A stretch of DNA of 64,000 nucleotides, taken from positions 23,919,740 through 23,983,739 of the forward strand of contig JARCOQ010000012.1 in NCBI GenBank assembly GCA_029207755.1, given 5' to 3'. The position numbers were made by a program, and so were the translations under genes. Source of the DNA: Chamaea fasciata (lineage: Eukaryota > Chordata > Aves > Passeriformes > Sylviidae). The notes under the pieces were generated by a model. The model was not told where the DNA came from, did not search any database, and saw only the letters and a list, made by a program, of their open reading frames with translations. Position 1 is the stretch's first letter, and each line of letters begins with the position of its first letter. This document shows positions 4,589 to 48,661 of this stretch, piece after piece.

Positions 4589-4595
4589 TACCTGG

Positions 4596-6719: not shown

Positions 6720-6735
6720 GGAGGTCAGGGGCTCT
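6717..6735 (+). promoter_or_regulatory. Gag-pol stop-codon readthrough context
   Basis: The gag TAG at 6717-6719 is followed in the same frame by GGA GGT CAG GGG and then by pol. TAG followed by GGAGGTCAGGG is the murine-leukaemia-type context in which about one ribosome in twenty reads through to make Gag-Pol. I did not fold the downstream pseudoknot. In ERV-C one inserted G breaks the same site. Confidence 0.75.
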
Positions 6736-10254: not shown

Positions 10255-10620
10255 ATGAATAGAAAATATTGGTATAAAACTTTTAGGATAGAATATCAAT
10301 CAGAGCTCGAAAGAGATCATAAGGGAAATATGTATGCTGATTGTGTTTGTATTAAATGTGAAGATTTTTGTTGTAATGGGAATTGTTACCCCTTTGTATG
10401 TTACCAATGTCTAATTTGTAAAAACAGGTGGTGGACCCATTGTCACAGAGGCAGGCCCCCGAGAGGTGTTTGCTGCCTCTGTCTAAAAAATTCAACGGGA
10501 GCTTACTGATTTAGTATTGGCTCAGAGGGTAGCTCAAGGGGAATTACAAGCAGACTTTAAAGAGTGGGGGGAAGTATTGGCAGAAGACATAAATTCCGAA
10601 CTATATTGTTAATCAGTCCT
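10255..10620 (+). pseudogene. ERV-B Cys-rich accessory frame, frameshifted
   Basis: The 84-codon open frame 10255-10509 matches the first 79 residues of the ERV-C accessory protein (42441-43115), including the WWTHC and PRGVC motifs and about twelve cysteines. At 10485-10490 a run of six A replaces five in ERV-C and shifts the frame, so the protein stops at 10509. Homologous sequence continues beyond that point with more indels and runs into env. The frame starts 15 bases after the pol stop. I know no described retroviral protein of this kind; see the ERV-C and ERV-D entries for the intact forms. Confidence 0.8.
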
Positions 10621-10624
10621 GTTC

Positions 10625-12763
10625 GTGGCACCAATAATAACTGGGGGAAAGACCACCACTGGAATACCTATACCCAAAGATCCTCAGAGAAAGGGTGAGA
10701 GTTCCCTCCTGAAGAATATCCTTGCTGCCGAGAAGATGGGTTTCCCCGTGGCTCGCAGCAATCGAGTCGATGGGCGAGGCAGAGGGAGAGAAACTTGTGG
10801 AGGAAGTCGCCATGGGATAGGTGGAACCAGGAGATCACGGAGAATGAAATGCCCCAGGACTGAAGCAACAAATGGGGAAGAGGAAACTGAGATGGGAACA
10901 AGCCACTGTTACAATGAAAAAGCCACCTGTAGACAACTGTTACTGTCACTACTATTATTATCCCTATGGATAAGTCAGACAAGAGGTCAAACACACCAGC
11001 CTTTTAAATGGTCCTTGATTCGTATGAATGACCACAAAATTTTGGGCTCCCTTGTGACCAGTCAGACCCCAGCCTTTAAGGCTGGGTTATGCAGCATGAC
11101 AAACATAGAACAGTGCGGGAGAGTTTTGAATTTAACTGGGTTTTATATGTGTCCGGCCTCAAATCCTGGAAAGAGCTACTGTAATTACCCAGGGGAGTAT
11201 TATTGCGGGTATTGGGGCTGTGAGACTATTGCTTCCGATTGGACTCCAGGGGGAGGTGCAGATCAATTTATTAGAGCAGGATTTGGTCCCACAGGGTGTG
11301 AAAGGCATTGGTTGGGACCATCTGGAGAAATTTCCTACTTAGGAACTTCTGAATATGTGTATATAAATGTTACAGATCCAGAGAGCCCTGACTGGTTATT
11401 AGGAAAATATTGGGGAATTAGACATTGGGAACCTGGGCGTGATAGAGGGAACCTAATAGTGATAAAGAAAGAGCCCGCCCCAGCCGATACCCATGGTATG
11501 GGACCGAATAGAGTTTTAGAGGAGGGTAAAGAGCTAACACCGGTTACAAATTACCCTAAGGCTACAGGCTCCCCACTAACCACATCCAGTCAGCAGGAAG
11601 CACGCTTGCATACCTTTAGTACTTCGTGGAAAATTATGCAAGCTAGCTTTGAGATATTAAATAGAACCTATCCGAACCTTACCCGGGAATGCTGGCTATG
11701 TTATGATATCCGACCACCCTTTTATGAAGCAGTGGGGTCAAGTGCCAAAATCAAAAGAGCCTACGGAACTAACCCTCGAGAATGTAAATGGGTGGAAAGA
11801 AACATCACTGAGGAGGCCCCGGGAATCACCATGTCAAAAGTCACTGGAAAGGGGACTTGTGTAGGTAAAGTACCCCCTCCTAAAGAAACACTGTGCAGCC
11901 GAACGGTTACGGCCAAGGATTCACAGTGGATGATTCCAGCCAAGAATGCTAAATGGGTATGCATGAAATCTGGAGTGACTCCTTGCATTTCGACAAGAGT
12001 CTTAAATGATACACATGACTTTTGTGTCCAAGTAATAATAGTTCCACGGATAATTTATCATCCTAAGGAGTATGTAATTGAACACCAAAATACTGCTGAG
12101 CATCACCTAACCAAAAGGGAGCCTTTCACCGCCTTGACTTTAGCAGTCCTATTAACATTAGCCGGTACTGGGGCAGGAACTGGAGCTGCAGCCTTGATCA
12201 CACAACCTGGTAAATTGAGTTCTTTAAGACATTCTGTTGATGAAGATCTCTGGAAAATTGATGAATCAATTACCGCACTAACTAAGTCAGTACGCTCATT
12301 ATCAGAAGTAGTTTTACAAAACAGACGGGGCCTGGATTTATTATTTTGGCAACAGGGAGGACTTTGTGTAGCCTTAAAAGAAGAGTGTTGCACCTATATA
12401 GATCAAACGGGAATAGTCTTTGACACCCTAGGAGAACTAAGAAAACAACTAGAAAAAAGGGAAAGAGAAAGAGAATCCCATCAGAGTTGGTATGAGAGTT
12501 GGTTCAATCATTCCCCATGGTTAACTACCTTACTGTCCACCATAGCTGGACCAATATTTTTACTAGTTCTTGTATTAACTTTTGGTCCCTGTATTTTTAA
12601 CAAACTTATTACAATAGTAAAAGGGCGACTGGAAGCTGCCCACTTGCTGCTGGTACAAGCAAAATATGAGGACTTAGAAAATAGGAAGGGAGAAACGGGA
12701 GATGGATTGGAATGGAGCAGACAAGAGCTTAAGCGATTTAATGCACAACATAAATTAACCTAA
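10625..12763 (+). CDS. env: ERV-B envelope glycoprotein, open frame
   Basis: The frame is 712 codons long, but the true start is probably further in, at one of the methionines near residues 75-95, because the first part overlaps the accessory gene and is highly basic. A hydrophobic signal (LLLSLLLLSLW) follows, then a surface subunit with a gamma-type CWLC box near 11690, a basic KR cleavage site near 12112, a Gly/Ala-rich fusion peptide, a heptad region with LQNRRGLDLL, and a CX6CC motif starting at 12365. A membrane anchor and a tail of roughly 55 residues end the protein. It would mediate receptor binding and fusion. The frame is intact although gag and pol of this copy are dead. Confidence 0.93.
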   Translation: MAPIITGGKTTTGIPIPKDPQRKGESSLLKNILAAEKMGFPVARSNRVDGRGRGRETCGGSRHGIGGTRRSRRMKCPRTEATNGEEETEMGTSHCYNEKATCRQLLLSLLLLSLWISQTRGQTHQPFKWSLIRMNDHKILGSLVTSQTPAFKAGLCSMTNIEQCGRVLNLTGFYMCPASNPGKSYCNYPGEYYCGYWGCETIASDWTPGGGADQFIRAGFGPTGCERHWLGPSGEISYLGTSEYVYINVTDPESPDWLLGKYWGIRHWEPGRDRGNLIVIKKEPAPADTHGMGPNRVLEEGKELTPVTNYPKATGSPLTTSSQQEARLHTFSTSWKIMQASFEILNRTYPNLTRECWLCYDIRPPFYEAVGSSAKIKRAYGTNPRECKWVERNITEEAPGITMSKVTGKGTCVGKVPPPKETLCSRTVTAKDSQWMIPAKNAKWVCMKSGVTPCISTRVLNDTHDFCVQVIIVPRIIYHPKEYVIEHQNTAEHHLTKREPFTALTLAVLLTLAGTGAGTGAAALITQPGKLSSLRHSVDEDLWKIDESITALTKSVRSLSEVVLQNRRGLDLLFWQQGGLCVALKEECCTYIDQTGIVFDTLGELRKQLEKRERERESHQSWYESWFNHSPWLTTLLSTIAGPIFLLVLVLTFGPCIFNKLITIVKGRLEAAHLLLVQAKYEDLENRKGETGDGLEWSRQELKRFNAQHKLT

Positions 12764-14076: not shown

Positions 14077-14595
14077 TGTAGTAGTTTGAAGGCAAAACAA
14101 ATGAGAGGCTCCAAGTCAGAGATACAATTTAATAGGAAAAAAGGAAAGAAAGTAAAATAAAATAGATGCAATAATACAAAAGACCACTGACAGAGTCAGA
14201 ATACAAGCTGAGTGGAGTGATGGAAGCAGTCCAGATGAGGTGGTCTTCCTGAAGCAGTGATCCTGTAGAAAGGTCTGGTAGCTCGGGTCCTCTGGGAATC
14301 CAGTGGGTAAGCGCCCCTCTGGTGTTCGGAGTCTCAGTTGATATCCAGGCTGGAATGCTTGGTTTCTCCCTCTGGGCGGAGCATCTCACAATGGGATGGT
14401 GAGTCATGTGATAAGGCCTGATGGGCCCATTAACAGGAGGTAGTCCAGGAGGGGGTTATCTGTGAGCTGTGCAGCAAAGGTGCTGATGAGCCCATTAACA
14501 GAAGATAAGCCAGAGTGGAGGAGGCAGGGAGCACTGCCTCACCTGGTTTCAACAGTTCATGAAGATGGTGATAGAATATACTTCAACCCAGGACA
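14077..14595 (-). repeat. ERV-A 5' LTR
   Basis: This 519-bp copy of the 808-1327 LTR has its outer end at 14595, followed by the target duplication tccat. Transcription would run leftwards into the leader and gag. Confidence 0.93.
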
Positions 14596-15368: not shown

Positions 15369-16799
15369 CTAAATAAGCAAAAAAATCAATACAGGTCCCG
15401 CAAACATCATGAATAACCCTTTCAGCCATCCTGGGATTTTCAACGAATTTAACCAAGTATCTAGTGGATTAGTATTTACTGTAATTTTTTTCATATTATT
15501 TCGTAGTTCCTGCAGCTTCTTATGAACCGATTCAGAATGGTCTGAAACATTCAAACAACACATGCCTTCAAAGTCTTCACAACCATGTCCTTGAGCAAGA
15601 AGCAAAAAATCAATAGCAGCACGGTTTTGGAGCACAGCATGCCTAACACTATCAACATCAACAAGCAAATCTGTTATAATTGCAGATGTTATATTAATTT
15701 GTTTTCCCGTCCAACAAGCTAAGCGGCGTAGCTGAGTTAAAGCCTTCGCAGATGCGACCCCTGGAGTGAAAAAGGAAGCTACAATTACAGTTGGACGTTC
15801 CCACAACTCGACATTATCTTTGCAGTCAGGTCCCAACTGATACACATTCCGACGGAATCTATGCCAGGACTGGGGCTTTTTTGCACTTAACACTTGTTGA
15901 ATAGTAGGGGCGAACAAAGTCAGTTTACCAAAATAACATGGGCCTCCCATGGGTTTTGAAGGAATTCCCTGCCATGCCCTGTCACCACAAATTAGGAACA
16001 CACCTGGGGGCAACTGGTGCGGATCTTTTCGGCTTAAGGTTATTGGTATTATCCAATTGTCACAATAGCCAGTGCGGTTAAAGCATATTTGACCAGTAGG
16101 GGAAACATCTGTGCCATTAGGAAGATGCCTTGGGCCAATCATTCTAGGCCTTTTATCATACTGTTTTGGACTTCCATATCCCCGATACCTGAAATCAAAA
16201 CAATAGGAGCTTGGGGAGGAGCCTAAGAGCTGCAATTCCTGTGGCTCGGGTCCTGTAACATTTAAATTGTTAGTAATGTAATAGGCTTGAGCACCCACTG
16301 GGTTTGGTTTGTAACGTTTGTAATGGGACGAGTTTGTATGTGATGCACACGGGCTAGCACTACCATCGTGACCCGTGCAAAACGTCTGGTTCGCGGTGGT
16401 TAAGTTCATCCATCTTGCAGTCCATCCTTGAAAGTTTGAGTTGTCATTAGTGGTATTCAGTGGCATGCCTACTAAGCAGGTTCGAAAAGGGTCGCTAGGT
16501 GTTGCCATTGATAAACAAAATGATTCCTGCCCTGTTTGGTTGGCCCAAGTAATCCACGTGTTTTGTCTCAGATCGATATTGTGCAACATCCCGTCATTGC
16601 TACCTATCATTGTAGGCCACCACAAAAACAAATACCACAAAGGCAAGTAAAATCCCCTAAAGTTGGGGCAATTCAGCCAATATCTTGGCCGGGTCCCATT
16701 CAACCTCCTCATTCTTTGCCATTGGAGTTGGTTGCTTAATATTACAGGGTGTTCCATCTTTATGACAACAAAAATAATCTTTAGTGGAAAACTCAGCAT
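15369..16799 (-). CDS. env: ERV-D envelope, alpharetrovirus-like, open frame
   Basis: The frame has 476 codons and overlaps the end of the accessory frame. A hydrophobic segment near residues 50-66 is the likely signal peptide, so the start may be one of several early methionines. The surface subunit has many N-glycosylation sites. A furin-type RFRR site leaves a transmembrane subunit of about 159 residues. In that subunit Cys9 and Cys45 flank an internal hydrophobic fusion region, the hallmark of avian sarcoma/leukosis Env. LQNRAAIDFLL and a CX6CC motif (CEDFEGMCC) follow. The protein stops right after the membrane anchor (GPVLIFLLI), so almost no cytoplasmic tail remains; this may be a truncation. 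Confidence 0.92.
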   Translation of the reverse strand: MLSFPLKIIFVVIKMEHPVILSNQLQWQRMRRLNGTRPRYWLNCPNFRGFYLPLWYLFLWWPTMIGSNDGMLHNIDLRQNTWITWANQTGQESFCLSMATPSDPFRTCLVGMPLNTTNDNSNFQGWTARWMNLTTANQTFCTGHDGSASPCASHTNSSHYKRYKPNPVGAQAYYITNNLNVTGPEPQELQLLGSSPSSYCFDFRYRGYGSPKQYDKRPRMIGPRHLPNGTDVSPTGQICFNRTGYCDNWIIPITLSRKDPHQLPPGVFLICGDRAWQGIPSKPMGGPCYFGKLTLFAPTIQQVLSAKKPQSWHRFRRNVYQLGPDCKDNVELWERPTVIVASFFTPGVASAKALTQLRRLACWTGKQINITSAIITDLLVDVDSVRHAVLQNRAAIDFLLLAQGHGCEDFEGMCCLNVSDHSESVHKKLQELRNNMKKITVNTNPLDTWLNSLKIPGWLKGLFMMFAGPVLIFLLI

Positions 16800-17295
16800 A
16801 CCGAAATTGTCGTTGTAAATATTGCTCCCAATTCTTATGTTTTACCTCTGGGCTATCACACTTCAAAGGTGTGAGTGTCTTGCGACAACGTATGTTAACA
16901 ATCTCAATAATGTCTGGCAAGGGTGTGTTGGGATGGTAACAATATCTCTCTGGGTTCAATCCAAATGCAAAAATTTCCCACCACCTTTTAGATCCTTCTA
17001 TTAATTGTCCTGTAAGCACGCCTATCCGCAACGCATGCGCAGTTACTTTTCTTTCATTATTATAACATTCTACACAAACTCCTCTTGGAGAGTGGCCCCT
17101 CCTACAATGTGTCCACCACTTTTCTTTGCATACCTTACAAATATAACATATAAAAGGATAGCACTCACACTCTGGCCCTATACACACAATACACATTGAC
17201 AAACGGTGGTTAACACTAGTCACAGTTTTTAGGGAGTCCAGGCGCGGTTGAAGCGTCAGGTGTGATTGTTTTGTTGGCTGCCTCTCCTGTCTCAA
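16657..17295 (-). CDS. ERV-D Cys-rich accessory protein, unknown function
   Basis: The 212-codon frame overlaps the end of pol (stop at 17216) and the start of env (16799). The conserved part starts near Met34. Cysteines lie at about 35, 38, 43, 45, 50, 53, 56, 64, 74, 77, 119, 137, 146, 176, 177 and 184, with WWTHC at 60-64, PRGVC at 70-74 and YCYH at 118-121. The ERV-C accessory protein has the same motifs at the same positions within one residue over about 140 residues. The spacing suggests two or three zinc-binding units. I see no signal peptide or membrane span. It has no stop although gag and pol of this provirus are damaged. Function is unknown; a regulatory or nucleic-acid-binding role is only inference. 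Confidence 0.8.
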   Translation of the reverse strand: MRQERQPTKQSHLTLQPRLDSLKTVTSVNHRLSMCIVCIGPECECYPFICYICKVCKEKWWTHCRRGHSPRGVCVECYNNERKVTAHALRIGVLTGQLIEGSKRWWEIFAFGLNPERYCYHPNTPLPDIIEIVNIRCRKTLTPLKCDSPEVKHKNWEQYLQRQFRYAEFSTKDYFCCHKDGTPCNIKQPTPMAKNEEVEWDPAKILAELPQL

Positions 17296-19960
17296 TCCAG
17301 GGCTTTACCCATTTTGCTGGGACCCATCGTGGAGATTTGTCCCCTATGGAAACACAAGCATATCCCCGTCCCCATGTTAATAGTGTATAAGGCGTCTGCC
17401 CCCATTTGCCTTGTCGGGGATCCCAGGTTTGTACTTGTGCTCGAATTTGTACATCATGAGTGACAAAATGCAATCGCATTGGGTATTCATCTCGTTTGTC
17501 ATCAACAGCTACAGGATTCTTCCAATTAAGTATATAACAAGCTTTAGCTATCATGTCCTGTGGTGTGAGGGATATGTCCCCCTCTTTTTTCAAAGAGTGT
17601 AAAAGTCGCTTAATGTCCTGATGACGCCGCTCCACAATACCTTGGCCTGTGCTGTTGTATGGAATCCCGGTAACATGTCTTACACCCCATTGCTGCAAAA
17701 AGATCTTAGTCCATTGGCCGACATAACTGGGGCCATTGTCCGTTTTAATTGTTTCTGGCACTCCCAACACCGCAAATGTTTGAAGCCAATGTGTTTTAAC
17801 TGCTTTAAAGGCTGTGGTGGTCGCTACTGTAGCCCACACTGCATGGCTATAAGTATCTACAGTCACATGTATGTGTTTAAAGCGTCCGAATGAAGGGTAT
17901 TCGGTGATGTCAGTCTGCCAAACCTTTTTTGGTACCAATCCACGCGGATTAACACCTTGATTCTGTAGAGGTAGCACGCGAGCACAATCAGGGCAAGCCG
18001 CCACAATGGCTCTTGCTTGTGCTCTGGAGATACCAAACTCCTGCTGCAGTCCTTTTGATGACTGGTGAAAAAACTCATGAGACTGTCTTGCCTTTTCAAA
18101 GGCTGATAACACCCACACACTTCCGGCTACAGCATGATCAATAACTTGATTTCCTTCCGTAAAAATGCCTGGCAAAGTAGTATGACTCTTAACATGGCAA
18201 CACCACAGTGGTTCAGTCCTTTCACAAATTAAACCTTTCAATTGTAAAGTTAACATGGCAATCTTATCATTTGCTATCTTCCCTATTTGGGCATAATCCA
18301 CTCAATTCACGATGCCTACTACATAGGCAGAATCAGCTATCAAGTTTAAGGGTACCTGGTCAAAATTCTTTAGGGCTGCTACTACAGCTTGTAGTTCCAA
18401 TACCTGTACAGAATCTCCTTTCTCGGTCCATGTTTGAATTTACCAAGTTCCTTGGTCTTGCCATGCAAAGCCATACTTGCCTGACCGACCACTGGCATCT
18501 GTAAATACAGTAATAGCATCAACAATAGGTTTATTCGCAACAATTGGTTCTCTGGATATGATGCTGGTGGTCTTAAACAGTGGGTGTGAGGGGTAATGCA
18601 CAGAAAGTTCGACCCCCAAAGTGGCAAGTGCAAAGGCTGGGCTATCTGACGACCATTGCTCTACTAACTCCACAGTTTTCCAAGGCATGATAATCTTTTC
18701 CGGTTCAGTTGCAAATACCAATCGAACTCGCTCACGAGCTTTCAACAGCAGCCTACCTATATACTCAATAAGCGACATAACAGATGCAGTGGGTGAAAAA
18801 GGTGGAAAAACCCATTCTAGTATAGCCAGAGTAGACTTGCTCTGCTGCATGATAATAGCGGATCTAGATTTTCCTGGTCCGTACACAGCTATTTGGATGG
18901 GTAATTGACTGTCATACCGAGAAACCTGTTGTTGTGCAATTTTGCCTTCAATTTTCTTAATCGCAAGTTTAGCTTCTTCTGATAGGGTTCGTGGTTCCCA
19001 AGGTGTATTGGAACCTTGCAGTAGGCCAAAAAGAGGTGCTAAATCCTCATTTGTTATTCCACACCAAGTGCGAACCCATTGAATATCTCCAACCAGTTTC
19101 TGTACATCATTTACATTTGTAATCTCAGAATGTAATCGTAGTTTTCCTGGTTGAATTCGCGTCTCAGTTACTGTCATCCCCAAATATGACCAAGGACTTT
19201 GCCTTTGCACCTTTTCAGGGGCTATGTGTAGGCCAAATTTCAGGAGACATGCAATTAAGTACTCTTCCCCTTCCTTACTTAGTTTATCAGGTGTAGCAAT
19301 CAGAATATCGTCCATGTAATGGTACACAATGGGTTTTTCATACCTTTTCCTGCAGTCATCCAGTGCCAAATCCACATACCATTGGCACATGGTGGGGCTG
19401 TTGCGCATTCCCTGCGGAAGGACAATACATTCATACCTTTTTGCTGGTCGAGCTGTATTTTTCTGTGGTACACTAAAGGCAAATCTCTCAGTATCGTCGG
19501 GATGCAAGGGAATTGAAAAGAAGCAATCTTTTAAATCAATAATTAACAAATTATAATCTTTTGGTAAGGCAACAGGTGATGGTAATCCAGGCTGCAATGC
19601 CCCTATAGGCTTCATGGTAGCATTAACAGCCCGAAGATCATGCAAAAGTCGCCACTTTCCAGATTTCTTTTTAATCACAAAAATAGGGGTATTCCATTCA
19701 CTAACAGAGGGCTTGATGTGTCCCAGAGTCAATTGCTCTTGTACTAATTCTTCAACTGCCTTCAATTTTTCTTCTGTGAGTGGCCATTGGGGCACCCATA
19801 CTGGATCATTGTTTTGCCATTGTATTTTTAGCACAGGTGGCCTCTGTTCCCCAATGGCCTCTATTAAAAATTTTGCGTTTGCAATGTTACTCCCCATTGG
19901 CTTAGGGTGTCCCTTCCCAAAATCCACAAAGGCATATGCATTATGTAGGGTCGCACCCAA
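17216..19960 (-). pseudogene. pol: ERV-D pol (RT, RNase H, integrase), two nonsense codons
   Basis: The RT frame runs from 19960 to 18440 with the YMDD box (YHYMDDILIA) and class II features such as LPQGMRNSPTMCQ. RNase H starts with TDASGR and is cut by TAA at 18440. A second stop, TGA, lies near 18303. Integrase (18301-17216) has catalytic residues in WQTDIT, TDNGPSY and GIVERRH. The N-terminal zinc region has His residues in the H-X-F-F-H-Q pattern and a C-P-D-C pair. The start overlaps the protease frame, as expected for a -1 frameshift from pro. Both stops sit between recognisable homologous sequence, so they are mutations and not natural ends. Confidence 0.92.
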
Positions 19961-20942: not shown

Positions 20943-22757
20943 TCATTTCTTTTCCTCTTCCCATGGGGCTTTTGAGCAAAGGTCTACCATTTGAACCAAG
21001 GTGGATCCTTGGGGCAGTGTTCTTAGTAAAGTTTGGCAAGTATCATTGGCATTTTGGGTGGCTACCTCTTTAAGCAAGGTTGTTTTGATATCGGGATCAA
21101 TATCAGGTACAGAATCCATTGATTCTCTTAACCGATCAACAAAAGTTAAAAATGGCTCATTTTCCTTCTGCCTAATTTGTAAATAGGGAGGATTCGGTTT
21201 TCCCATCTGAGGCAAAGCAGTAAATGCCTCCAGGGCGGCAGCTTTACTCTGTGACAAAACGCAAGGCGGTAGGGCTGCTTGCCTTTGAGGGTCTCTGTAT
21301 TGCCCCGACCCCATAAGCATGTCTATTGAGGCAGCTCGAAGGGGATCTTGGATCGGTAAGTCGAGGTTTTGCACCTGATAATGCTCCAGCCTTTCTGGCC
21401 ATTTTACCAAAAACAATGTATATGCTGTTGGTCCCAATAAAGTTTCCATAATTAATCTAATATCGGCAGGCACCAATTCCTGATATTTTACAAATGCTGT
21501 TAGTTGTCGCCTAACTGCCGAATTAGTTGCCCCATAAGCCATAATACTTTGCTGTAATTTTTGAATTGCATTCCACTCTAAAGGTGCCCATTCAGGACCA
21601 TTTACTGTGGCCTGTACAGGGGCCGCAAGCACCCCCTCTATCTCCATTGGGCCTTGAAGGTTTACACTCGTTAACAAACCTTTCCATCGTTTTGCAGCAT
21701 CAAAAGATGGGTCTCGAGGTATATTTACCTCCCCACTTTTTACATGTGATCTGGAGCCTGCTCCAACATAACCTCTTTGTTTTTCGTTTTGCCAAATGGC
21801 TTCTTCCAACTCATCTATTTCTCGTTTCGTCAATCCTTCCCCTACCCCACACAGTTGCTTGATTTTACTCTGCCCCTCTCTTAAGGACAATTCTCCTCTT
21901 TTTATGGCATTTTTTATTCCTTCTCGGCCCCCCAAGTCACTTTTTTCTTTTTCCACTAATTGCCGTTCAATATTTTCGATACCTTCTTTTACTGCCCGAT
22001 AAGCTTTCTCATACATCTCCCTTCTTTCCCCTTTTTTCCCCAATTTGTCCATTGCTTGCATTTCAGTCATTAAATCAGCCATTTGTTGACGTTGCTGTTT
22101 CAGCTCATCTATTAAGTCTGCGTATGGGGAATTTATGGTACTCTTTCCTTCCCCTTTTTCATCAGGCAGAGGGATCTTGACAGGGTCAACATCCATAGGT
22201 TGTGTCCCTTTTTGAGGAGAAGTCTCAGCAGGGGGAGCAGAGGGTTCGGGTGGAGGGATCCAAGGGATAATCACATCATCAAATTCACCTTTCTTTTTTG
22301 CAGGGGCTGCCAATATAGTTTCTGGGCTACTATAAGGGGGAACAGGTTCAGCGTATGGTCCCCATTCAAGCAAGTCCGTTTGTTCATTGGGCTCAGGCTT
22401 CCTTCCACTAATAGCGTCTTGCAAAGCAGCGGCTATTTCCGCATCAGCGTGTACTTGGTCTATCATTAACCGTACTGCGCGGTATGTATGCGCCAACTGC
22501 TTGCTGCCTTTCTGCCCACTTTGTACGCTCTCCCATAGTTCCTCCCCTATTTTCTTCCAATTGTCTTGTGAGAACAATTGTCCTGTTGCAGTTAGTAGCC
22601 CCCTCCGGTGACACCAAAGCAGAAAGTCTACCAATTCCTGCCTTGGAATTGACTGTCCAGTCTTGGCCACTGACAACAGTCCATCTACCGTAGCCTTTTC
22701 GATCGCTGATACAGCGGAGCGCATCCCGTCCCAGACAATAAAGTCTGCCTGACTCAC
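20943..22757 (-). CDS. gag: ERV-D gag (matrix to capsid), ends at premature TGA
   Basis: The 604-codon frame starts MSQADF, with no glycine at position 2 and so no myristoylation signal. The middle is rich in Pro, Gln and charged residues, with a PSAP late-domain motif in PPEPSAPPAE and a coiled-coil-like stretch around the LKQQRQQMADLM segment. The capsid part has a major homology region near the end (QKENEPFLTFVDRLRESM). Gag builds the particle and binds the genome. The nucleocapsid domain lies beyond the stop at 20943, so the product would lack zinc knuckles. The layout resembles betaretroviruses. Confidence 0.9.
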   Translation of the reverse strand: MSQADFIVWDGMRSAVSAIEKATVDGLLSVAKTGQSIPRQELVDFLLWCHRRGLLTATGQLFSQDNWKKIGEELWESVQSGQKGSKQLAHTYRAVRLMIDQVHADAEIAAALQDAISGRKPEPNEQTDLLEWGPYAEPVPPYSSPETILAAPAKKKGEFDDVIIPWIPPPEPSAPPAETSPQKGTQPMDVDPVKIPLPDEKGEGKSTINSPYADLIDELKQQRQQMADLMTEMQAMDKLGKKGERREMYEKAYRAVKEGIENIERQLVEKEKSDLGGREGIKNAIKRGELSLREGQSKIKQLCGVGEGLTKREIDELEEAIWQNEKQRGYVGAGSRSHVKSGEVNIPRDPSFDAAKRWKGLLTSVNLQGPMEIEGVLAAPVQATVNGPEWAPLEWNAIQKLQQSIMAYGATNSAVRRQLTAFVKYQELVPADIRLIMETLLGPTAYTLFLVKWPERLEHYQVQNLDLPIQDPLRAASIDMLMGSGQYRDPQRQAALPPCVLSQSKAAALEAFTALPQMGKPNPPYLQIRQKENEPFLTFVDRLRESMDSVPDIDPDIKTTLLKEVATQNANDTCQTLLRTLPQGSTLVQMVDLCSKAPWEEEKK

Positions 22758-22882
22758 CGGTCAGAAGTCCTCGTGGCCACGAATATCCCTGCGTCCTTGC
22801 GCAGCCCTGCTTCTTGAGCAGCCGGGATTCTCCACCTTCTCTCGTCCGCTTGAGGGCAGTCCTCTACTCCCGTTGTCCCGTC

Positions 22883-35325: not shown

Positions 35326-37190
35326 TGCACTGCTGCGGTAGATTCTCTGCATCTGAAGAGAACGGACAGTACGCTGAGCGGCCGCTCCAAGCAAAACCAC
35401 AAAAAACAGCCGGCAAGAGCAGTAGATGTGCCAAAAAAGCAATTTCTCGCTTCTTGGGCTTGGAGACGCACTTGCACTGCTGCAGGAGATTCTCTGCTTC
35501 TCCAGAGCACGGACAGCATGCAGGGGCACCAGATCTGCCGAAAACGCGATTTCTCGCTTTCCGGGCTTGGAAATGCACTTGCGCTCCTGTTCGAGCTTCT
35601 CTGCTTCTGCAGAGCACGCTGAGCAAGGAAGGAGCACTGGAAGTGCCGAACAAGTTCTGGCTTCTCGGGCTCGCAGATGCCCTGGACCTGCTGCTCAAGC
35701 TTCTCTGCTTCTGCAGAGCACACCGAGCATGGCAGGCACACCGCAGGTACCGAACAAGCGAGTTCTGGCTTCTCAGGCTCGCAGACGCCCTGGACCTGCT
35801 GCTCAAGCTTCTCTGCTTCTGCAGAGCACACCGAGCACGGCAGGCACACCGCAGGTACCGAACAAGCAAGTTCTTACTTCCTGACACCGGAGACGTGCAG
35901 CCACCGCTGCTTGAGCGTCTTTGCTTCTGCAGAGCATGCCGAGCAAGGCAGGAGCACCGGAAGTGCTGAACAAGCAAGTTCTGGGTTCCCAGGCTCGCTG
36001 ATGCCCTGGCGCTGCTGCTTGAGCTTCTCTGCTTCTGCAGAGCACGTCAAGCAAGGCAGGAGCACCGGAAGTGCTGAACAGGCGAGTTCTGCCTTCCCGG
36101 GCTTGCAGACAACCTGGTGCTGCTGCTCGAGCTACTATGTTTCTGCAGAGCACGCAGAGCAAGGCAGGAGCACCAGAAGTGCCGAACACGTGAGTTCGGG
36201 CTTCCTGGGCTCAGACACCATGGTGCGCCTGCACGAGCTTCTCTGCCTCTGCAGAGAACACCGAGCACAGTGAGTGCGCCAGAAGTGCCGAACAAGCGAG
36301 TTCTCGCTATCCGGCCCTGGAGACGCACGGGCGCCGCTGTTCGAGCTTCCCTGCCACTTCAGAGAATGCCGAGCGCGCCAGAAGAGCCGAACAAGCAAGT
36401 TCTCGCTTCCCATCCACGGAGACGCGCAGCCGCCGCTGCTCATGATTTCCTGCCACTGCAGAGCATGCTGAGCACAGCAGGCGCACCGAAGGTGCCGAAC
36501 AAGTGAGTTCTCGCTTCCCAGCCCCAGAGACGCACGGGCAATGCTGCGCGAACTTCTCTTCTTCTGAAGAGCACACTGAGCATGGCAGGCACACCGCAGG
36601 TACCGAACAAGTGAGGTTTTTTTTCCTGGCACCGGAGACAGGCGGCCGCTGCTGCTTGAGCTTCTCTGCCACTGCAGAGCACGCCGAGAACAGCAAGCGC
36701 ACCGGAGGTGCCAAACAAGTGAGTTCTGGCTTCCCAGGCTCGCAGACGCCCTGGCGCTGTTCCTTGAGCTTCTCTGCTTCTGCAGAGCACGCCGAGCAAG
36801 GCAGGAGCAAAGGAAGTGTCGAACAGGCGAGTTCTGGCTTCCCGGGCTCACAGACAACATGGTGCTGCTGCTTGAGCTTCTCTGCTTCTGCAGAGCACGC
36901 CAAGCATGGCAGGCAAACTGGAGGTACCAAACAAGCAAGTTGTTTCTTCCTGGCACCTGAGACGGGCGGCCGCCCCTGCTTATGCGAACCTGCCACTGCA
37001 GAGCATGCCGAGCACAGCAGGTGCACCGGAGGTGCTGAACAAGGGAGTTCTGGCTTCCCGGCCCCGGAAACACATGGGTGCTGCTTCTCGAGCTTCTCTG
37101 CCACGGCAGAGCTCACCGAGCACGGCGGGTGTGCCAGAAGTGCCAAACAAGCGAGTTCTTGCTTCCCGTCCATGGGTCAGCTCACCTTCA
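35326..37190. repeat. 108-bp GC-rich minisatellite
   Basis: About 17 imperfect units recur every 108 bp; TTCTCTGCTTCTGCAGAG starts at 35701 and at 35809, with a variant near 35917. Each unit also has GAACAAG.GAGTTCTGGCTTC. Because 108 is 36 codons, open frames of up to 312 codons appear on both strands. The absence of a single conserved frame makes a minisatellite more likely than a gene. Confidence 0.85.
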
Positions 37191-40546: not shown

Positions 40547-42574
40547 TTAGGTTAATTTATGTTGTGCATTAAATCGCTTAAGCTCTTGTCTGCTCCATTC
40601 CAATCCATCTCCCGTTTCTCCCTTTCTATTTTCTAAGTCCTCATATTTTGCCTGTACCAGCAGCAAGTGGGCACCTTCCAGTCGCGCTTTTACTATTGTA
40701 ATAAGTTTGTTAAAAATACAGGGACCAAAAGTTAATACAAGAACTAGTAAAAATATTGGTCCAGCTATGGTGGACAGTAAGGTAGTTAACCATGGGGAAT
40801 GATTGAACCAACTCTCATACCAACTCTGATGGGACTCTCTTTCTCTTTCCCTTTTTTTTAGTTGTTTTCTTAGTTCTCCTAGGGTGTCAAAGACTATTCC
40901 CGTTTGATCTATATAGGTGCAACACTCTTCTTTTAAGGCTACACAAAGTCCTCCCTGTTGCCAAAATAATAAATCCAGGCCCCGTCTGTTTTGTAAAACT
41001 ACTTCTGATAATGAGCGTACTGACTTAGTTAGTGCGGTAATTGATTCATCAATTTTCCGGAGATCTTCATCAACAGAATGTCTTAAAGAACTCAGTTTAC
41101 CAGGTTGTGTGATCAAGGCTGCAGCTCCAGTTCCTGCCCCAGTACCGGCTAATGTTAATAGGACTGCTAAAGTCAAGGCGGTGAAAGGCTCCCTTTTGGT
41201 TAGGTGATGCTCAGCAGTATTTTGGTGTTCAATTACATACTCCTTAGGATGATAAATTACCCGTGGAACTATTATTACTTGGACACAAAAGTCATGTGTA
41301 TCATTTAAGACTCTTGTCGAAATGCAAGGAGTCACTCCAGATTTCATGCATACCCATTTAGCGTTCTTGGCTGGAATCATCCACTGTGAATCCTTGGCCG
41401 TAACTGTTCGGTTGCACAGTGTTTCTTTAGGAGGGGGTACTTTACCTACACAAGTCCCCTTTCCAGTGACTTTTGACATGGTGATTCCCGGGGCCTCCTC
41501 AGTGATGTTTCTTTCCACCCATTTACATTCTCGAGGGTTAGTTCCGTTGGCCCTTTTAATTTTGGCACTTGACCCCACTGCTTCGTAAAAGGGTGGTCGG
41601 ATATTATAACATAGCCAGCATTCCCGGGTAAGGTTCGGATATGTTCTATTTAATATCTCAAAGCTAGCTTGCATAATTTTCCACAAAGTACTATAGGTAT
41701 GCAAGGGTGCTTTCTGCTGACTGGATATGGTTAGTGGGGAGCCTGTAGCCTCAGGGTAATTTGTAACCGGTGTTAGCTCTTCATCCTCCTCTAAAACTCT
41801 ATTCGGTCCCATACCATGGGTATCGGCTGGGGCGGGCTCTTTCTTTATCACTATTAGGTTCCCTCTATCACGCCCAGGTTCCCAATGTCTAATTCCCCAA
41901 TATTTTCCTAATAACCAGTCAGGGCTCTCTGGATCTGTAACATTTATATACACATATTCAGAAGTTCCTAAGTAGGAAATTTCTCCAGATGGTCCCAACC
42001 AATGCCTTTCACACCCTGTGGGACCAAATTCTGCTCTAATAAATTGATCTGCACCTCCCCCTGGAGTCCAATCGGAAGCAATAGTCTCACAGCCCCAATA
42101 CCCGCAATAATACTCCCCTGGGTAATTACAGTAGCTCTTTCCAGGATTTGAGGCCGGACACATATAAAACCCAGTTAAATTCAAAACTCTCTCGCACTGT
42201 TCTATGTTTGTCATGTTACATAACCCAGCCTTAAAGGCTGGGGTCTGACTGGTCACAAGGGAGTCTAAAATTTTATGGTCATTCATACGAATCAAGGACC
42301 ATTTAAACGGCTGGTGTGTTTGACCTCCTGTCTGCCTTACCCATAGGGATAATAATAGTAGTGACAGTAACAGTTGTCTACAGGTGGCTTTTTCATTGTA
42401 ACAGTGGCTTGTTCCCATCTCCTTTTCTTCTTCCCTGATTTTAGTCCCAGTCCTTGGGCATTTCATTTTCCATGACCTCCTGGTTCCACCTATCCCAGGG
42501 CGACTTCCTCCACAGTTTTCTCTCCCTCTGCCTCGCCCGTCGACTCGGTTGCTGCGAGCCACGGGGAGACCCAT
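40547..42574 (-). CDS. env: ERV-C envelope glycoprotein, open frame
   Basis: The 675-codon open frame is very similar to ERV-B Env. A hydrophobic signal (LLLSLLLLSLW) lies after a basic N-terminal stretch that overlaps the accessory gene, so the real start is probably one of the later methionines (MKCP or MGTS). The surface subunit has a CWLC box. A KR cleavage site near 41198 precedes a Gly/Ala-rich fusion peptide, then LQNRRGLDLL, a CX6CC motif and a membrane anchor. No stop or frameshift is seen. Such class I Envs mediate fusion, and some have been adopted by hosts, but nothing here shows host use. Confidence 0.93.
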   Translation of the reverse strand: MGLPVARSNRVDGRGRGRENCGGSRPGIGGTRRSWKMKCPRTGTKIREEEKEMGTSHCYNEKATCRQLLLSLLLLSLWVRQTGGQTHQPFKWSLIRMNDHKILDSLVTSQTPAFKAGLCNMTNIEQCERVLNLTGFYMCPASNPGKSYCNYPGEYYCGYWGCETIASDWTPGGGADQFIRAEFGPTGCERHWLGPSGEISYLGTSEYVYINVTDPESPDWLLGKYWGIRHWEPGRDRGNLIVIKKEPAPADTHGMGPNRVLEEDEELTPVTNYPEATGSPLTISSQQKAPLHTYSTLWKIMQASFEILNRTYPNLTRECWLCYNIRPPFYEAVGSSAKIKRANGTNPRECKWVERNITEEAPGITMSKVTGKGTCVGKVPPPKETLCNRTVTAKDSQWMIPAKNAKWVCMKSGVTPCISTRVLNDTHDFCVQVIIVPRVIYHPKEYVIEHQNTAEHHLTKREPFTALTLAVLLTLAGTGAGTGAAALITQPGKLSSLRHSVDEDLRKIDESITALTKSVRSLSEVVLQNRRGLDLLFWQQGGLCVALKEECCTYIDQTGIVFDTLGELRKQLKKRERERESHQSWYESWFNHSPWLTTLLSTIAGPIFLLVLVLTFGPCIFNKLITIVKARLEGAHLLLVQAKYEDLENRKGETGDGLEWSRQELKRFNAQHKLT

Positions 42575-43115
42575 CTTCTCGGCAGCAGGGATATTCTTCA
42601 GGAGGGGACTTTCGCCCTTTCTTTAAGGATCTCTGGATATAGGTGTTCCAGTTGTGGTCTTTAACCTGAGGAGCGTCACACCTTACTTCTTTTATCCGAC
42701 GGCGACACACTCCAGCTATTATTTGTGCCACAAAAAGGACTGGTTCATTGGAATGGTAACAATATAGTTCGGGATTTATGCCTTCTGCAAATATGTCCCA
42801 CCACTCTTTAGAGTCTACTTGTAATTCCCCTTGAGCTACATTCTGAGCCAATACTAAATCAGTAAGCTCCCGTTGAATTTTTAGACAGAGGCAGCAAACA
42901 CCTCTCGGGGGCCTGCCTCTGTGACAATGGGTCCACCACCTGTTTTCACAAACTAAACATTGGTAACATACAAAGGGGTGACAATTCCCATTACAATAAG
43001 AATCATTACATTTAATACAAACACAATCATTATATATATTTCCCTTATGGTCTCTTTCAAGCTCTAGTTGATATTCTATTCTAAAAGTTTTATACCAATA
43101 TTTTCTGTTCATCAA
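42441..43115 (-). CDS. ERV-C Cys-rich accessory protein, unknown function
   Basis: The 224-codon open frame starts 12 bases after the pol stop and overlaps the 5' end of the env frame. Cysteines lie at 31, 33, 36, 41, 45, 50, 53, 56, 64, 74, 75, 77, 119, 137, 146, 177 and 178, with His at 46, 63 and 65. WWTHC is at 60-64, PRGVC at 70-74 and YCYH at 118-121. The C-terminal 45 residues are strongly basic. ERV-D encodes a colinear homologue; in the 32-residue core (47-78) 20 residues are identical. I see no signal peptide. The arrangement suggests a zinc-binding protein, possibly nuclear or RNA-binding because of the basic tail. That is inference. I know no described retroviral accessory gene that matches. 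Confidence 0.82.
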   Translation of the reverse strand: MMNRKYWYKTFRIEYQLELERDHKGNIYNDCVCIKCNDSYCNGNCHPFVCYQCLVCENRWWTHCHRGRPPRGVCCLCLKIQRELTDLVLAQNVAQGELQVDSKEWWDIFAEGINPELYCYHSNEPVLFVAQIIAGVCRRRIKEVRCDAPQVKDHNWNTYIQRSLKKGRKSPPEEYPCCREDGSPRGSQQPSRRARQRERKLWRKSPWDRWNQEVMENEMPKDWD

Positions 43116-43127
43116 GAATGTCCTTTC

Positions 43128-46100
43128 TTAATTTCCTGTTGCAGTTCCCCGAGTGAGTTTCAACTTTAAGTCTCCGGCTGGGCTGATGACCTTCCACCTA
43201 GGCTCGGGCACTGGTCCTTTTATACGACTGGCGTGAGTCCATCCCCGCTCTGCTGTCCGTACTGCTGTATTTGTTGTGAGAAGCACCAGATATGGACCAT
43301 CCCAATGGGGCTGGAGAGTAATTTCTTTCCAAGTTCGGATTAAGACCCAGTCTCCCGGTTGCACCTGATGTAGAGTGATATTTAAGGGTGGTCTCTGCAA
43401 TATCTGCCCTTTTTCCCATAACTTCTTCCTAAAGTCCATCATCTCGGTTATATATGTTTTCATTTGTTTATCAATTATTCCGGGGTGGTCTCGAGGCATA
43501 CCTGCATCATACGGCATCCCATACAGCATTTCAAAAGGAGATATCCCCACATCAGATCGGGGCAGAGTTCTGAGATTTAACAAGGCCAGGGGGAGACACT
43601 TAATCCAATTAAGTTTGGTTTCTAAAGTTAACTTCGTTAGCTGTTTCTTTAATTCTCCATTAACTCTCTCTACTAACCCCGAACTTTGAGGATGCCACAG
43701 GGTATGTTCTTCCCATCTAATTCCAAGGGCTTCTGACAAGGCCTTAATAACTTTTGATACAAAGTGTGGTCCTTGGTCTGAGTCTATACTTTCAGCTACT
43801 CCATACCTGGGCACAATTTGTTCTAGTAACACTTTGGCCACCGTGTGTGCAGTGGCTCTTGCGGTTGGAAATGCCTCTACGAAATGGGTGAGGTGGTCTA
43901 TTAGTACTAACACATACTTATATCTTCCCACCTTGGGAAGTTCAGTGAAATCTATTTGTATTTTAGAAAAAGGCCTTACGGCAACCGGTCTTCCTCCTCT
44001 TGGTAGTTCTCTCCGTACAGAGCGGTTTACCTTCAAGCAAATCTCACAGTGCTGAGTGATTGATTTGGCTAGATCATGTACCCCAATACTCATATATTTT
44101 AAAGCAAATTGATCTATTAGTGCCTGACTTCCCCAATGAGTCTTTTGATGTATATTCGACAACAATTGGAAAGCCAAAGCCTTTGGGATGACTTCTCTCC
44201 CGTCCGGTAGTCTCCATTTCCCTTCTTTATCTTGTTGTACTCCCATATCTTTCAGTTTACGTTCTTCTTGGGGTGTAAATCGAACAGGGTAAGGGTTGGG
44301 AGGGTCCAGTTCTGATCTAGGATTCTTATGCTTAAGAAGTTCTATTCTGAGGGCAGCCTTTTTAGCCTCTGCATCTGCTTTGTTGTTTCCCCTGGTCTTA
44401 CGATCTGTCCCTGTTTGATGTCCTCTGAGATGTACTATTGCTATTCTCACGGGGTCTCTCAGGGCGTGCAATACTTCCTTGATTAATTCTTGATGTATAA
44501 GGTCTTTCCCTTGGGAATTAATTCGACCTCTTTCCTCCCATATTTTCCCAAATGTGTGCACCACTCCATAACTGTACTTCGAATCAGTATAAATGGTTCA
44601 TGTTTTTCCTTTTAGTCTTTTAAGAGCCCGCAAGATGGCATATAATTCACATGCTTGGGCTGACCATGACGGATTCAAGGGTCCTGCTTCTAAAACCTCA
44701 AAATCCTTCCCTGCTACTAGTGCATATCCTGATCTACGTCTTCCATCCACTATCTGGGATGAGCCATCCACAAAAATTACTTCTCCCTCTGAGAGCTCCT
44801 CCTCCTCTAAATCGGGCCTAATCTTAGTCTGTTCCTCAATAGTTCGGAGGCAATCGTGGGCCAGTTCTTCTGATAGTTTTGGTTCCCCAAATAAAAACTG
44901 AGCAGGGTTTTGTAAAGATGTAGTTTCTAATGTTAAATTCGGGGCCTCCAGCAAGATCCCCTCATATTTTAATAATCTGGAATCAGAGATCCATTTTTCA
45001 GCTTTTTGCTGCAAAACACTCCTCACATTGTGGGGGGATAATACCTTAATGGTACTATTGAAGGTTATTTTTCGAGCCTCCTCTATCATTAAGGCACATC
45101 CAACAATGGCCTGTAAACATGTGGGCCAGCCCCTACTCACAGGGTCTAATAATTTAGACAAGTATCCTATGGGCTTCTTTTTCCCTGCCCAATCTTGGGT
45201 TAATACTCCATATGCTGTCCCATTCTCTATGTTGGCGAATAGATAAAATGGTCGGTTTAAGTCTGGCAAACTTAAAACTGGTGCATTTGCCAATTCTCTC
45301 TTTAATGCCCAGAGTTGCTCTTCATCTGTCTTTCCCCAGCTTATATGATTAGACTCGGTGAGCTTGGCATATAAAAATTTAACTTTACTACTGTAGTTTT
45401 CAATCCATAAGCGGCAATATCCCAATAGTCCTAACCATTGTCTAACCTGTTTTTTACTTGCTGGAGGGGGTAAAGATAAAATTCCCTGTACCCGTTCCGG
45501 GTCAATTGTCTTCTCTCCCTTCTCAATGTAGTGTCCTAAATACTTTACCTTTTCTTCTACAAATTGTAATTTAGATTTTGATACCTTCAGCCCCTTAAGC
45601 CCCAGAAAATTTAAAAGTTTTATGCTTTCTTTTCTGACTTGATTTTCCATTTTTCCTGCTATCAATAGGTCATCCACATACTGAATCAGGGTAATTTCTG
45701 GGTCTGGGGTAAAATCTTGAAGAATCTGTTCTAGGGCTTGTCCAAACAAATTAGGGCTTTCTGTAAACCCCTGTGGAAGCACGGTCCACCTCAATTGTTG
45801 TTTGTGCCCTGTGTCAGGGTCTTCCCATTCAAATGCAAAATAGTCTCTACAGCTTTCGTCTAAAGGGCAAGCCCAAAAAGCATCCTTTAAGTCTATTACA
45901 CTGTACCACAAATTTTCTGGCCCCAATTTACTCAAAAGGGTATAGGGTTTTGCTACTACTGGGAATCTGGACACAGTGCGCTTATTGATTTCTCTTAAAT
46001 CGTGCACTAGTCGATAAGTGCCATTGGGTTTCTTTACTGGTAAAATTGGGGTATTAAATGGGGACATACACGGTTCTAATAGTCCCTGAGATATTAATCT

Positions 46101-46649
46101 CTCAACTTCGGGTTTCAACCCCTTCCGCCCTTCTATAGACATAGAATATTGCTTAATTTGGACGGGGTTCTCCGGGTTCTTGAGGGTTACTTTAAATGGC
46201 GAGATGTTTAGTCTGCCCACGGTCTCAGGGGTATACCAGACTTCAGGATTAATTTCTTGTTCGTCTTCAACCCTAAGGGCACATATTTTAATTCCCAGCT
46301 CCCCTTTTTTAACTTCCAAACCTATTCCTAATTCTACCATCAAATCCCTTCCCAAAAGATTAAAATCGGCTTCTGGGACTAAGAGAAAATTTCCCATACC
46401 TAATTTAGATTCTGTTTCTATTAAAACTTGTTGTACAATCCCTACCTTGAAGGGTTCTCCCTTTGCTCCAACCACATGGGCAATATCTTTAGATAATTTG
46501 CACCCAGGGGGTATTTGCTGGAGGGTAGACCTCTCAGCTCCTGAGTCTACCAAAAATTCTACCTCCTGTGACTGGGGACCTAATTTTAGTTTTATCAAGG
46601 GCTCTTTGTTCGTACGGGTCCCCAATACATAGAGCCCCTGACCCCCCCT
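43128..46649 (-). pseudogene. pol: ERV-C pro-pol, one nonsense codon
   Basis: The main frame (46673-44598) begins with protease (LVDSGAE) and RT (QYVDDLLIAG), continues into RNase H (FVDGSS) and stops at TGA 44598-44600, where ERV-B has GGA. The frame continues from 44564 to 43128 with the rest of RNase H and integrase (IDFTEL, DSDQGPHF, VERVNGE). A further defect is at the junction with gag: after the gag TAG there are six G where ERV-B has GGAGG, so pol is one base out of the readthrough frame. Only these two lesions are apparent in pol. Confidence 0.93.
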
Positions 46650-48081
46650 AATCTTCTTTGAATGCCGCCTCATCCTTTATCCTCTGTCTGCAGTCTCTTT
46701 TCATATGTCCTTTCTTCCCACAGTAGTAGCAGTTGGGGGCCCCCTTCTGGGCTACTATCCTGTTTCCACTTTGCAGTCCCCGCGGTCTTTCCATTCGTCT
46801 CCCCTCTCGTACTGCTGCCACCATCAATTTCATTTGCTTTTTATGTGTGTCTTCCTCTCTTCTAACATAAACTTTCTGCGCTTCTCTGAGTAATTCATCC
46901 AATCCCCTATCCTGCCAATTTTCCAATTTTTCCAACTTTCTCCTAATGTCTTCCCAAGATTTTCCCACAAATTGCATCTTCAATAAAGCCTGTCCTAGTT
47001 GGGTCTCGGGATCTAGCCCGGAATATAACTGCAGGTTTTTTCTCAGTCTTTCTAACCATTCTGTGGGGGATTCATCCTTCTTCTGGGTTTCACTTAATGT
47101 TTTATGTAGATTCTGTCCTCTTGGAACAGATTGTCTAATCCCTTGTATAATAACGTTTCTTAAATCCTCCATGTCCCTTCTCCCATTCTGGGTTTGATGG
47201 TCCCACCCAGGGTTCTGTAGAGGCCATTTCACGTCCCCGGCAGGTCCTTGCGCATGTTGTAAATCCCACAGCCTCATCCCTTCTCTCCTAATCATATTTC
47301 TTTCTTCTGCCGTAAATAAAATTCTCAAAATAGACTGTAATTCTTCCCAGTTGTATATATTAGGGCCTAAAAATAGGTCTAGCTTTTCTGCTACTCCCAG
47401 CGGGTCCTCTAGTAAGCTACCCATATCCTTTTTAAACTCTCTAACTGTATTTGAATTCAAAGGTACTGATACGAACCCTAGTTGCGGTTGTGCCCCTCCC
47501 ATAGGTACTTCCCTTAAGGGTAGCAGCTCGTGTTCCCTCCGCCTTCTCCTAACTGTGGGTCCAATGCCCTCGTCCTCGGGGGTTTGGGCGTCCGGTTGAG
47601 GAGTAGGAACCGGTAATACTTGGGGCAGGGGTTGTGGTGCTGGTGGTGGTGGAGGGGGTGCATACGGGGGTGGTATCAGGGGAACTTCCTCTTCCTCCTG
47701 TGCTTTTTTATTTTTCTCATCTTTATGTTCAAACTTTATTTGGGAGAGATTGAATATTGCTACTCCCTGGTCCCCTGGGCGGGTGACCCATACCGCAGCA
47801 TAATCTGCCTCTTCCTGATTAAAGGGGACCTTCCTACGTACCCACTGATTCAAAAATCCCTGAATCCATAATTCTGATGACCCAAACCTGGGCCACCAAA
47901 CTGCCTTGGAGATTTGTTGTCCTCCCCAGACTTCTACACAAAAGTGTATCATCTTAACTTTGTCCTTGTCCCCCGTGGTGGGATAATATTTCCAATTCTC
48001 TAACATAAACCCCAGCGGTGAATCCCTAGGAACCGAAGGGGGTCTCATGGGTGGAGGGGGCTTGCTTTTCCCCTGTCCCAT
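46648..48081 (-). CDS. gag: ERV-C gag, intact 477-codon frame
   Basis: The protein starts MGQGKSK with a Gly2 myristoylation site for membrane targeting. A PPPY late domain, which recruits NEDD4-type ligases for budding, is at 137-140 in a proline-rich linker. The capsid includes a major homology region (SPTEWLERLRKNLQLYSG). One CCHC knuckle, C-Y-Y-C-G-K-K-G-H-M-K-R-D-C, is at 451-464. The frame ends at a TAG that in ERV-B has a readthrough context. One knuckle and the PPPY motif are typical of gammaretroviruses. This is the only complete gag in the window. Confidence 0.94.
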   Translation of the reverse strand: MGQGKSKPPPPMRPPSVPRDSPLGFMLENWKYYPTTGDKDKVKMIHFCVEVWGGQQISKAVWWPRFGSSELWIQGFLNQWVRRKVPFNQEEADYAAVWVTRPGDQGVAIFNLSQIKFEHKDEKNKKAQEEEEVPLIPPPYAPPPPPPAPQPLPQVLPVPTPQPDAQTPEDEGIGPTVRRRRREHELLPLREVPMGGAQPQLGFVSVPLNSNTVREFKKDMGSLLEDPLGVAEKLDLFLGPNIYNWEELQSILRILFTAEERNMIRREGMRLWDLQHAQGPAGDVKWPLQNPGWDHQTQNGRRDMEDLRNVIIQGIRQSVPRGQNLHKTLSETQKKDESPTEWLERLRKNLQLYSGLDPETQLGQALLKMQFVGKSWEDIRRKLEKLENWQDRGLDELLREAQKVYVRREEDTHKKQMKLMVAAVREGRRMERPRGLQSGNRIVAQKGAPNCYYCGKKGHMKRDCRQRIKDEAAFKED

Positions 48082-48140
48082 CTTCTGGAATACCCTCTTT
48101 CAGCCGTGTGTGTGCTCACTCACTTCCCCTTTTTCGTGGC

Positions 48141-48661
48141 TGTCCTGGGTTGAAGTATATTCTATCACCATCTTCATGAACTGTTGAAACCAGGTGAGGC
48201 AGTGCTCCCTGCCTCCTCCACTCTGGCTTATCTTCTGTTAATGGGCCATCAGCACCTTTGCTACACAGCTCACAGATAACCCCCTCCTGGACTACCTCCT
48301 GTTAATGGGCCCATCAGGCCTTATCACATGACTCACCATCCCATTGTGGGATGCTCCGCCCAGAGGGAGAAACCAAGCATTCCAGCCTGGATATAAGCTG
48401 AGACTCTGAACACCAGAGGGGCGCTTACCCACTGGATTCCCAGAGGACCCGAGCTACCAGACCTTTCTACAGGATCACTGCTTCAGGAAGACCACCTCAT
48501 CTGGACTGCTTCCATCACTCCGCTCAGGTTGTATTCTGACTCTGTCAGTGGTCTTTTGTATTATTGCATCGATTTTATTTTACTTTCTTTCCTTTTTTTT
48601 TCCTATTAAATTGTATCTCTGACTTGGAGCCTCTCATTTGTTTTACCTTCAAACTACTACA
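48141..48661 (+). mobile_element. Solo LTR of the ERV-A family inside the ERV-C leader
   Basis: This 521-bp sequence runs TGTCCTGGGTTGAAG to CTACTACA and matches the ERV-A LTRs. The 5-bp repeat gtggc lies at 48136-48140 and 48662-48666. The undisturbed ERV-B leader (6303-6340, reverse complement) has only one gtggc, which proves the insertion. Recombination between two LTRs removed the body of the element. It postdates ERV-C. Confidence 0.96.

Follow-up and report, generated by a model that had tools for sequence, protein, structure and literature searches.

How did two retroviral lineages of different type come to carry the same cysteine-rich gene between pol and env? The question is raised by a stretch of 64,000 nucleotides from the genome of Chamaea fasciata (assembly GCA_029207755.1, contig JARCOQ010000012.1, positions 23,919,740 to 23,983,739 of the forward strand), hereafter the window, in which three proviruses are relevant to it: the endogenous retroviruses (ERVs) ERV-B, ERV-C, and ERV-D. 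A first-pass annotation of this DNA had reported the frame at the same place in ERV-C and ERV-D and a broken form of it in ERV-B, and this was borne out (minus, minus, and plus strand for ERV-C, ERV-D, and ERV-B, respectively). The frame is almost certainly a homologous accessory gene of retroviruses. We lean, by a modest measure, to an overall reading in which this gene was selected, was moved by recombination, and would encode a zinc-folded binder of host proteins.

In both ERV-C and ERV-D, the gene is located between pol and env. The starts assigned to it in the first-pass annotation proved to be TTG codons; the first ATG codons lie at 43112 and 17196, 15 bases (ERV-C) and 19 bases (ERV-D) after the pol stop codon. 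From stop to stop, the frames occupy 42441–43127 in ERV-C and 16657–17304 in ERV-D. The 3′ part of ERV-C pol ends directly upstream of the accessory frame and is in the same frame with it. The accessory frame differs from the env frame in both proviruses, and its end lies inside the env-frame open reading frame (ORF). The claimed overlap with the start of env held to this extent, but in ERV-C it depends on the env start used, and the two genes truly overlap only if env starts at 42574 or 42466, not at 42418. Within the core common to the ERV-C and ERV-D genes (164 gap-free columns), the coding frame is open, and the other two sense frames contain 11 and 11 stops in ERV-C and 9 and 18 in ERV-D. 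Approximately 30 residues at the N-terminus of the ERV-C protein have no counterpart in the ERV-D protein read from its ATG. Relative to ERV-C, the ERV-B gene has one extra base near 10486 and then lacks 12 bases at one place and 46 at another.

A single BLASTP comparison of the ERV-C and ERV-D accessory proteins yielded 72 identities over 167 columns (43%) and E 7e-50, and with only 3 gaps, the near-gapless alignment claimed earlier was confirmed. When every cysteine was masked, the E value was 9e-34; the similarity is therefore not an effect of composition. The accessory gene was also the sole blastn match between ERV-C and ERV-D better than E 0.2 (73% over 79 bases, E 2e-7). In the core, 15 of 16 cysteines and all five tryptophans are common to the two proteins. 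Tyrosine is common at 5 positions (8 in ERV-D, 6 in ERV-C), arginine at 5 (11 in ERV-D, 17 in ERV-C), lysine at 2 (13 in ERV-D, 8 in ERV-C), glutamate at 2 (14 and 12 in the two proteins), and histidine at 2 (6 and 5). The motifs were said to fall at the same residue numbers within one, and they do: in the numbering of the first-pass annotation, WWTHC at 60, PRGVC at 70, YCYH at 118, and the CDxP cysteine at 146 stand at identical numbers in the two; of the five motif positions, the CC pair alone (177 and 176) is off by one.

Identity of the ERV-C and ERV-D cores at codon positions 1, 2, and 3 was 55%, 67%, and 43%. The proportion of synonymous differences (pS) was 0.744, which is essentially saturation, at a nonsynonymous divergence (dN) of 0.52, indicating that the protein was under purifying selection. 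The accessory gene is thus real and was once under such selection. A chance frame, or a functionless extension of the env leader or integrase, would be in keeping with the broken ERV-B copy and with a 3′ end that overlaps the env-frame ORF in both ERV-C and ERV-D. We give this explanation almost no weight in view of the E value between two proviruses, the saturated synonymous sites, the frame distinct from that of env, and the stop codon after pol; moreover, apart from the three accessory genes themselves, tblastn with either protein gave no match better than E 1.5 in the window. An identity as Env leader or Env protein was ruled out by the different frame, the lack of similarity to Env, and the lack of a membrane-like segment: the accessory proteins contain no Env-like hydrophobic stretch, with peak 19-residue hydropathy of 1.12 and 1.41 vs. 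2.37 and 2.05 in the Envs.

The primer-binding site sequences of ERV-C and ERV-D are different (by the look of the sites, presumably for tRNA-His and tRNA-Trp, respectively), and from the domain content (Table 1), we take ERV-C to be gamma-like and ERV-D, the pol of which also matched RVT_thumb, to be alpha/beta-like. Site sequences and domain profiles thus uphold the earlier statement that the two differ in primer site, pol class, and Env class. Gamma- and alpha-type lineages are regarded as simple retroviruses. By BLASTP, the reverse transcriptase (RT), integrase (IN), and transmembrane protein (TM) of ERV-C and ERV-D were 28%, 27%, and 29% identical; Gag and the surface protein (SU) showed no significant similarity. 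Counted over aligned stretches picked from the BLAST ranges, and with the RT, IN, and TM counts worked back from rounded fractions, identities were 72/164 (43.9%) in the accessory core, 85/276 (30.8%) in RT, 58/186 (31.2%) in IN, and 39/129 (30.2%) in TM. One-sided Fisher tests of the accessory core against RT, IN, and TM gave p 0.004, 0.009, and 0.011 (pooled 0.001).

RT and integrase usually belong to the slowest-evolving proteins of retroviruses. Between ERV-B and ERV-C, the ratio of dN to synonymous divergence (dS) was 0.06 in the protease–RT part (PR-RT) and 0.20 in the RNase H–IN part (RH-IN), vs. approximately 0.4 in the accessory gene before the ERV-B frameshift; the IN and env ratios come from few changes, many of them possibly post-integration. 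The accessory gene is apparently not slower than pol within this family, yet it is more similar than pol between ERV-C and ERV-D, which points to recombination after the lineages split. Homology across two lineages with movement by recombination, as had been suggested, is supported by the same identities and by an ERV-B/ERV-C divergence that is greater in this segment than in RH-IN or in most of env. From these comparisons, recombination between lineages is the likely source of the shared gene, and it is preferred to common descent and to separate capture. Given the saturation at synonymous sites, the transfer would be old.

The same place and the same gene order, with the first ATG at the short distances from the pol stop codon given above, would be expected if the two lineages, gamma-like and alpha/beta-like, had inherited the gene from their ancestor and most known descendants had lost it. 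Such descent is unlikely, because the accessory core is more alike than RT, IN, and TM of the same provirus pair and because, within the ERV-B/ERV-C family, the gene is apparently not slower than pol. It is very improbable that each lineage separately captured a host gene, whether identical or a paralogue, at the pol–env junction. Passages of PMC4299795 describe a reptile ERV that took up a host gene, the crocodilian KIT ligand, and lost no ERV domain in doing so, and the weak hit in the PDB to a host ligase of the RING-between-RING (RBR) type, RNF216 (E 0.12), would agree with a host origin; on the other hand, there is no Pfam family match up to E 10, and two captures at an identical place are unlikely.

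ERV-B and ERV-C are, on their sequences, a mosaic family, with PR-RT 16–17% divergent vs. 2–3% in RH-IN and env. Their identity was 97.6% in RH-IN, 97.9% in env past the overlap, and 84% in PR-RT (6719–8489 in ERV-B vs. 44877–46647 in ERV-C), where the differences are mostly synonymous (dS 0.92, dN 0.05). In windows of 90 columns, which covered the accessory segment and the adjoining parts of IN and env given here, identity was 83–99% in the accessory segment, 93–100% in the last 873 bases of IN, and, in env past the accessory segment, 92–93% in the first two windows and 97–100% in the next five. The segment around the accessory gene therefore has a history unlike that of its flanks within this family as well, although faster evolution could account for part of this pattern.

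As a mechanism, we propose that template-switch recombination would have carried the gene across from one of the two lineages to the other after their split, and that its protein would have been read from its own spliced mRNA, folded around zinc as a cysteine module and a C-terminal Trp/Cys domain, and bound host proteins in the infected cell, such as a restriction or signalling factor, like Vif or Vpr. A ribosome scanning from the accessory ATG would meet 8 further ATGs in ERV-C and 5 in ERV-D before the first one of the env ORF. This makes simple leaky scanning to env unlikely, and the two proteins are probably read from different messages. According to a crude pyrimidine count, acceptor-like sites are located upstream of the accessory ATG at 43877, 43570, and 43365 in ERV-C and at 17963 in ERV-D, and further ones inside the accessory gene.

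The CxxC pairs make zinc binding plausible, and the best-conserved residues are, judging by the alignment, of the kind that builds a fold and a protein interface. Because cysteine and tryptophan are conserved and lysine and arginine are not, a binder of host proteins is favored over an RNA-binding regulator; we assign it host-protein binding, as opposed to RNA regulation or any other role, tentatively. As an alternative on function, compatible with any history of the gene, the protein could have regulated viral RNA or transcription in the nucleus, as Rev, Rec, Rex, or Tat do. The richness in cysteine, the isoelectric point (pI) of 8.3–8.6, and the Arg-rich tail of the ERV-C protein would suit such a regulator. 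The absence of that tail in ERV-D is evidence against an arginine-rich RNA binder, and of the residue types counted, Lys and Arg rank near the bottom in conservation; we consider this alternative rather unlikely. The regulator of viral RNA proposed in the first-pass annotation accordingly lost ground, since few basic residues are common to the two proteins. It is improbable, though conceivable, that the gene belongs to a mobile accessory gene family, swapped as a cassette at the pol–env junction between retrovirus classes of birds or reptiles and encoding a zinc-folded ubiquitin-ligase mimic that removes a host defence protein.

Several results weigh against the combined reading of a selected, transferred gene for a zinc-folded host-protein binder. 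Between ERV-B and ERV-C, the 76 codons before the ERV-B frameshift gave dS 0.156 and dN 0.063, the ratio of approximately 0.4 cited above; the 80 codons past it gave dS 0.128 and dN 0.114 (dN/dS 0.9), with one stop in ERV-C's frame. For the accessory part before the env ATG, dS was 0.141 and dN 0.085 (dN/dS 0.6), for the env overlap 0.248 and 0.074, and dN/dS of env was 0.75; all these figures come from few changes and a broken ERV-B copy and thus provide no clean test of function. The intact accessory copies number two and so do the lineages. AlphaFold models of the full ERV-C protein and of the ERV-D core had a mean predicted local distance difference test score (pLDDT) of 37 and 42 and were unusable. 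No acceptor-like site stands directly before the accessory ATG in ERV-C or ERV-D by the same pyrimidine count. Unequal constraint could keep the accessory protein more alike than RT without any transfer, and the choice of stretches from the BLAST ranges bears on the same comparison.

Searches for relatives of the accessory proteins were negative. No Pfam family was found up to E 10 for the full frames or cores of either protein, no NCBIfam or PHROG family up to E 1 for the full frames, and no significant chain match in the PDB. IMG/VR contained no relative of the ERV-C protein, of alignment A2, or of the ERV-C and ERV-D integrase frames, and one scan of GTDB genomes with A2 revealed none, results that say little about vertebrates; to our knowledge, vertebrate sequences are scarce in both collections or missing from them. 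Homology to RNF216 was rejected and is kept as a lead only: the PDB profile match at E 0.12 was the best of 177635 sequences and is not significant. The pattern C-x-C-x4-C-x2-C-x10-C-x9-C-x2-C of ERV-D is in ungapped register with RING2 of RNF216 (PDB 7m4n) over 35 residues with seven cysteines, whereas the first loop, from the first CxxC to the next cysteines, is shorter, and the spacing match is partial. Shuffled sequences with cysteine positions kept reached the RNF216 score in 23/2000 cases for ERV-D and 111/2000 for ERV-C; the shared feature is therefore mostly cysteine spacing. The three-row profile A3 did not recover RNF216; its matches were four ryanodine receptor sequences at E 8.5.

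Lentiviral Vif and Vpr are small accessory proteins encoded in the pol–env interval, and Vif binds zinc via His/Cys and recruits a ubiquitin ligase. The gene of ERV-C and ERV-D is likewise small and placed between pol and env, but its protein has no Pfam match up to E 10 and no PDB match to Vif or Vpr, and its carriers are gamma-like and alpha/beta-like viruses. The accessory genes of complex retroviruses (Rec, Rev/Rex, Tat/Tax, Bel, and the Orfs of walleye dermal sarcoma virus) are listed in passages of PMC1224870, which add that accessory genes not yet known are hard to recognise. Like these, the present gene is additional to gag-pro-pol-env; unlike them, its protein is without a family match, and in contrast to export proteins of the Rev/Rec type, no conserved Arg-rich RNA-binding motif is found in it. 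Crocodilian ERVs have gained extra genes, KIT ligand or nectin3 (passages of PMC4299795); those are recognisable host genes, whereas the protein described here matches no Pfam family. Such a gene was not named in the titles and abstract openings listed by searches of one open library, nor in passages of PMC2717909, PMC4299795, and PMC1224870, and the search terms for it were absent from PMC6001957. The frame may already sit uncommented in a Repbase or NCBI record.

Table 1. Positions of the proviruses and of their genes in the window.
Feature	Position	Strand	Description
ERV-B provirus	about 5.6–13.2 kb	+	bounded by terminal repeats
ERV-B accessory gene, broken	10255..10869	+	extra base near 10486, then 12-base and 46-base deletions relative to ERV-C
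ERV-D provirus	about 14.9–23.2 kb	-	bounded by terminal repeats
ERV-D env ORF from first ATG	15369..16799	-	SU: Avian_gp85 match (63 residues); TM: TLV_coat match
ERV-D accessory gene, intact, from first ATG	16657..17196	-	179 aa, pI 8.3, 16 Cys
ERV-D accessory protein, N-terminal cysteine module	17065..17196	-	MCIVC to VCVEC
ERV-D pol, integrase part	17216..18301	-	Integrase_Zn, rve, IN_DBD_C
ERV-D gag frame	20943..22760	-	Gag_p24 N- and C-terminal domains
ERV-C provirus	about 40.1–49.4 kb	-	bounded by terminal repeats
ERV-C env ORF from first ATG, gamma type	40547..42574	-	TLV_coat, E 2e-116
ERV-C accessory gene, intact, from first ATG	42441..43112	-	223 aa, pI 8.6, 17 Cys
ERV-C accessory protein, N-terminal cysteine module	42885..43022	-	VCIKC to CCLC
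ERV-C pol, 3′ part (RNase H and integrase)	43128..44597	-	murine leukemia virus (MLV)-type IN C-terminus
ERV-C gag frame, gamma type	46648..48099	-	Gag_p30, zinc knuckle

The terminal repeats of ERV-B, ERV-C, and ERV-D are 97–98% alike per provirus over the stretches compared. Alpha and alpha-beta ERVs are reported in the chicken genome and not in the human one in passages of PMC1224870. The pol gene of ERV-C has an in-frame stop at 44598, within RNase H, and that of ERV-B is split over two overlapping frames. In comparison with ERV-C gag (6374–6719 vs. 46648–48081), the start (215 bases, 92%) and the end (122 bases, 94%) are left of ERV-B gag, approximately 1.1 kb having been lost. A repeat of approximately 355 bp is present in three copies 98–99% alike (868–1224, 14137–14488, and 48243–48599), one in the ERV-C leader, where it is skipped by the match of ERV-B to ERV-C, and two outside ERV-B, ERV-C, and ERV-D. 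Two more proviral pieces, 81–83% alike, are located near the window ends (1421–5570 on the minus strand and 59669–64000 on the plus strand). Judged by eye, their gag- and pol-like frames are of another type, and the part of them within the window contained no significant copy of the accessory gene. At 35428–37167, a 108-base unit is repeated approximately 16 times (74% matches) in an array that has long open frames on each strand.

The case of ERV-C and ERV-D suggests that retroviruses regarded as simple passed an accessory gene between lineages. If this is true, complex genomes arose among gamma- and alpha-type retroviruses too, and accessory genes would be able to move from one retroviral class to another. 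A host factor with which the two viruses both had to contend would then be indicated as well.
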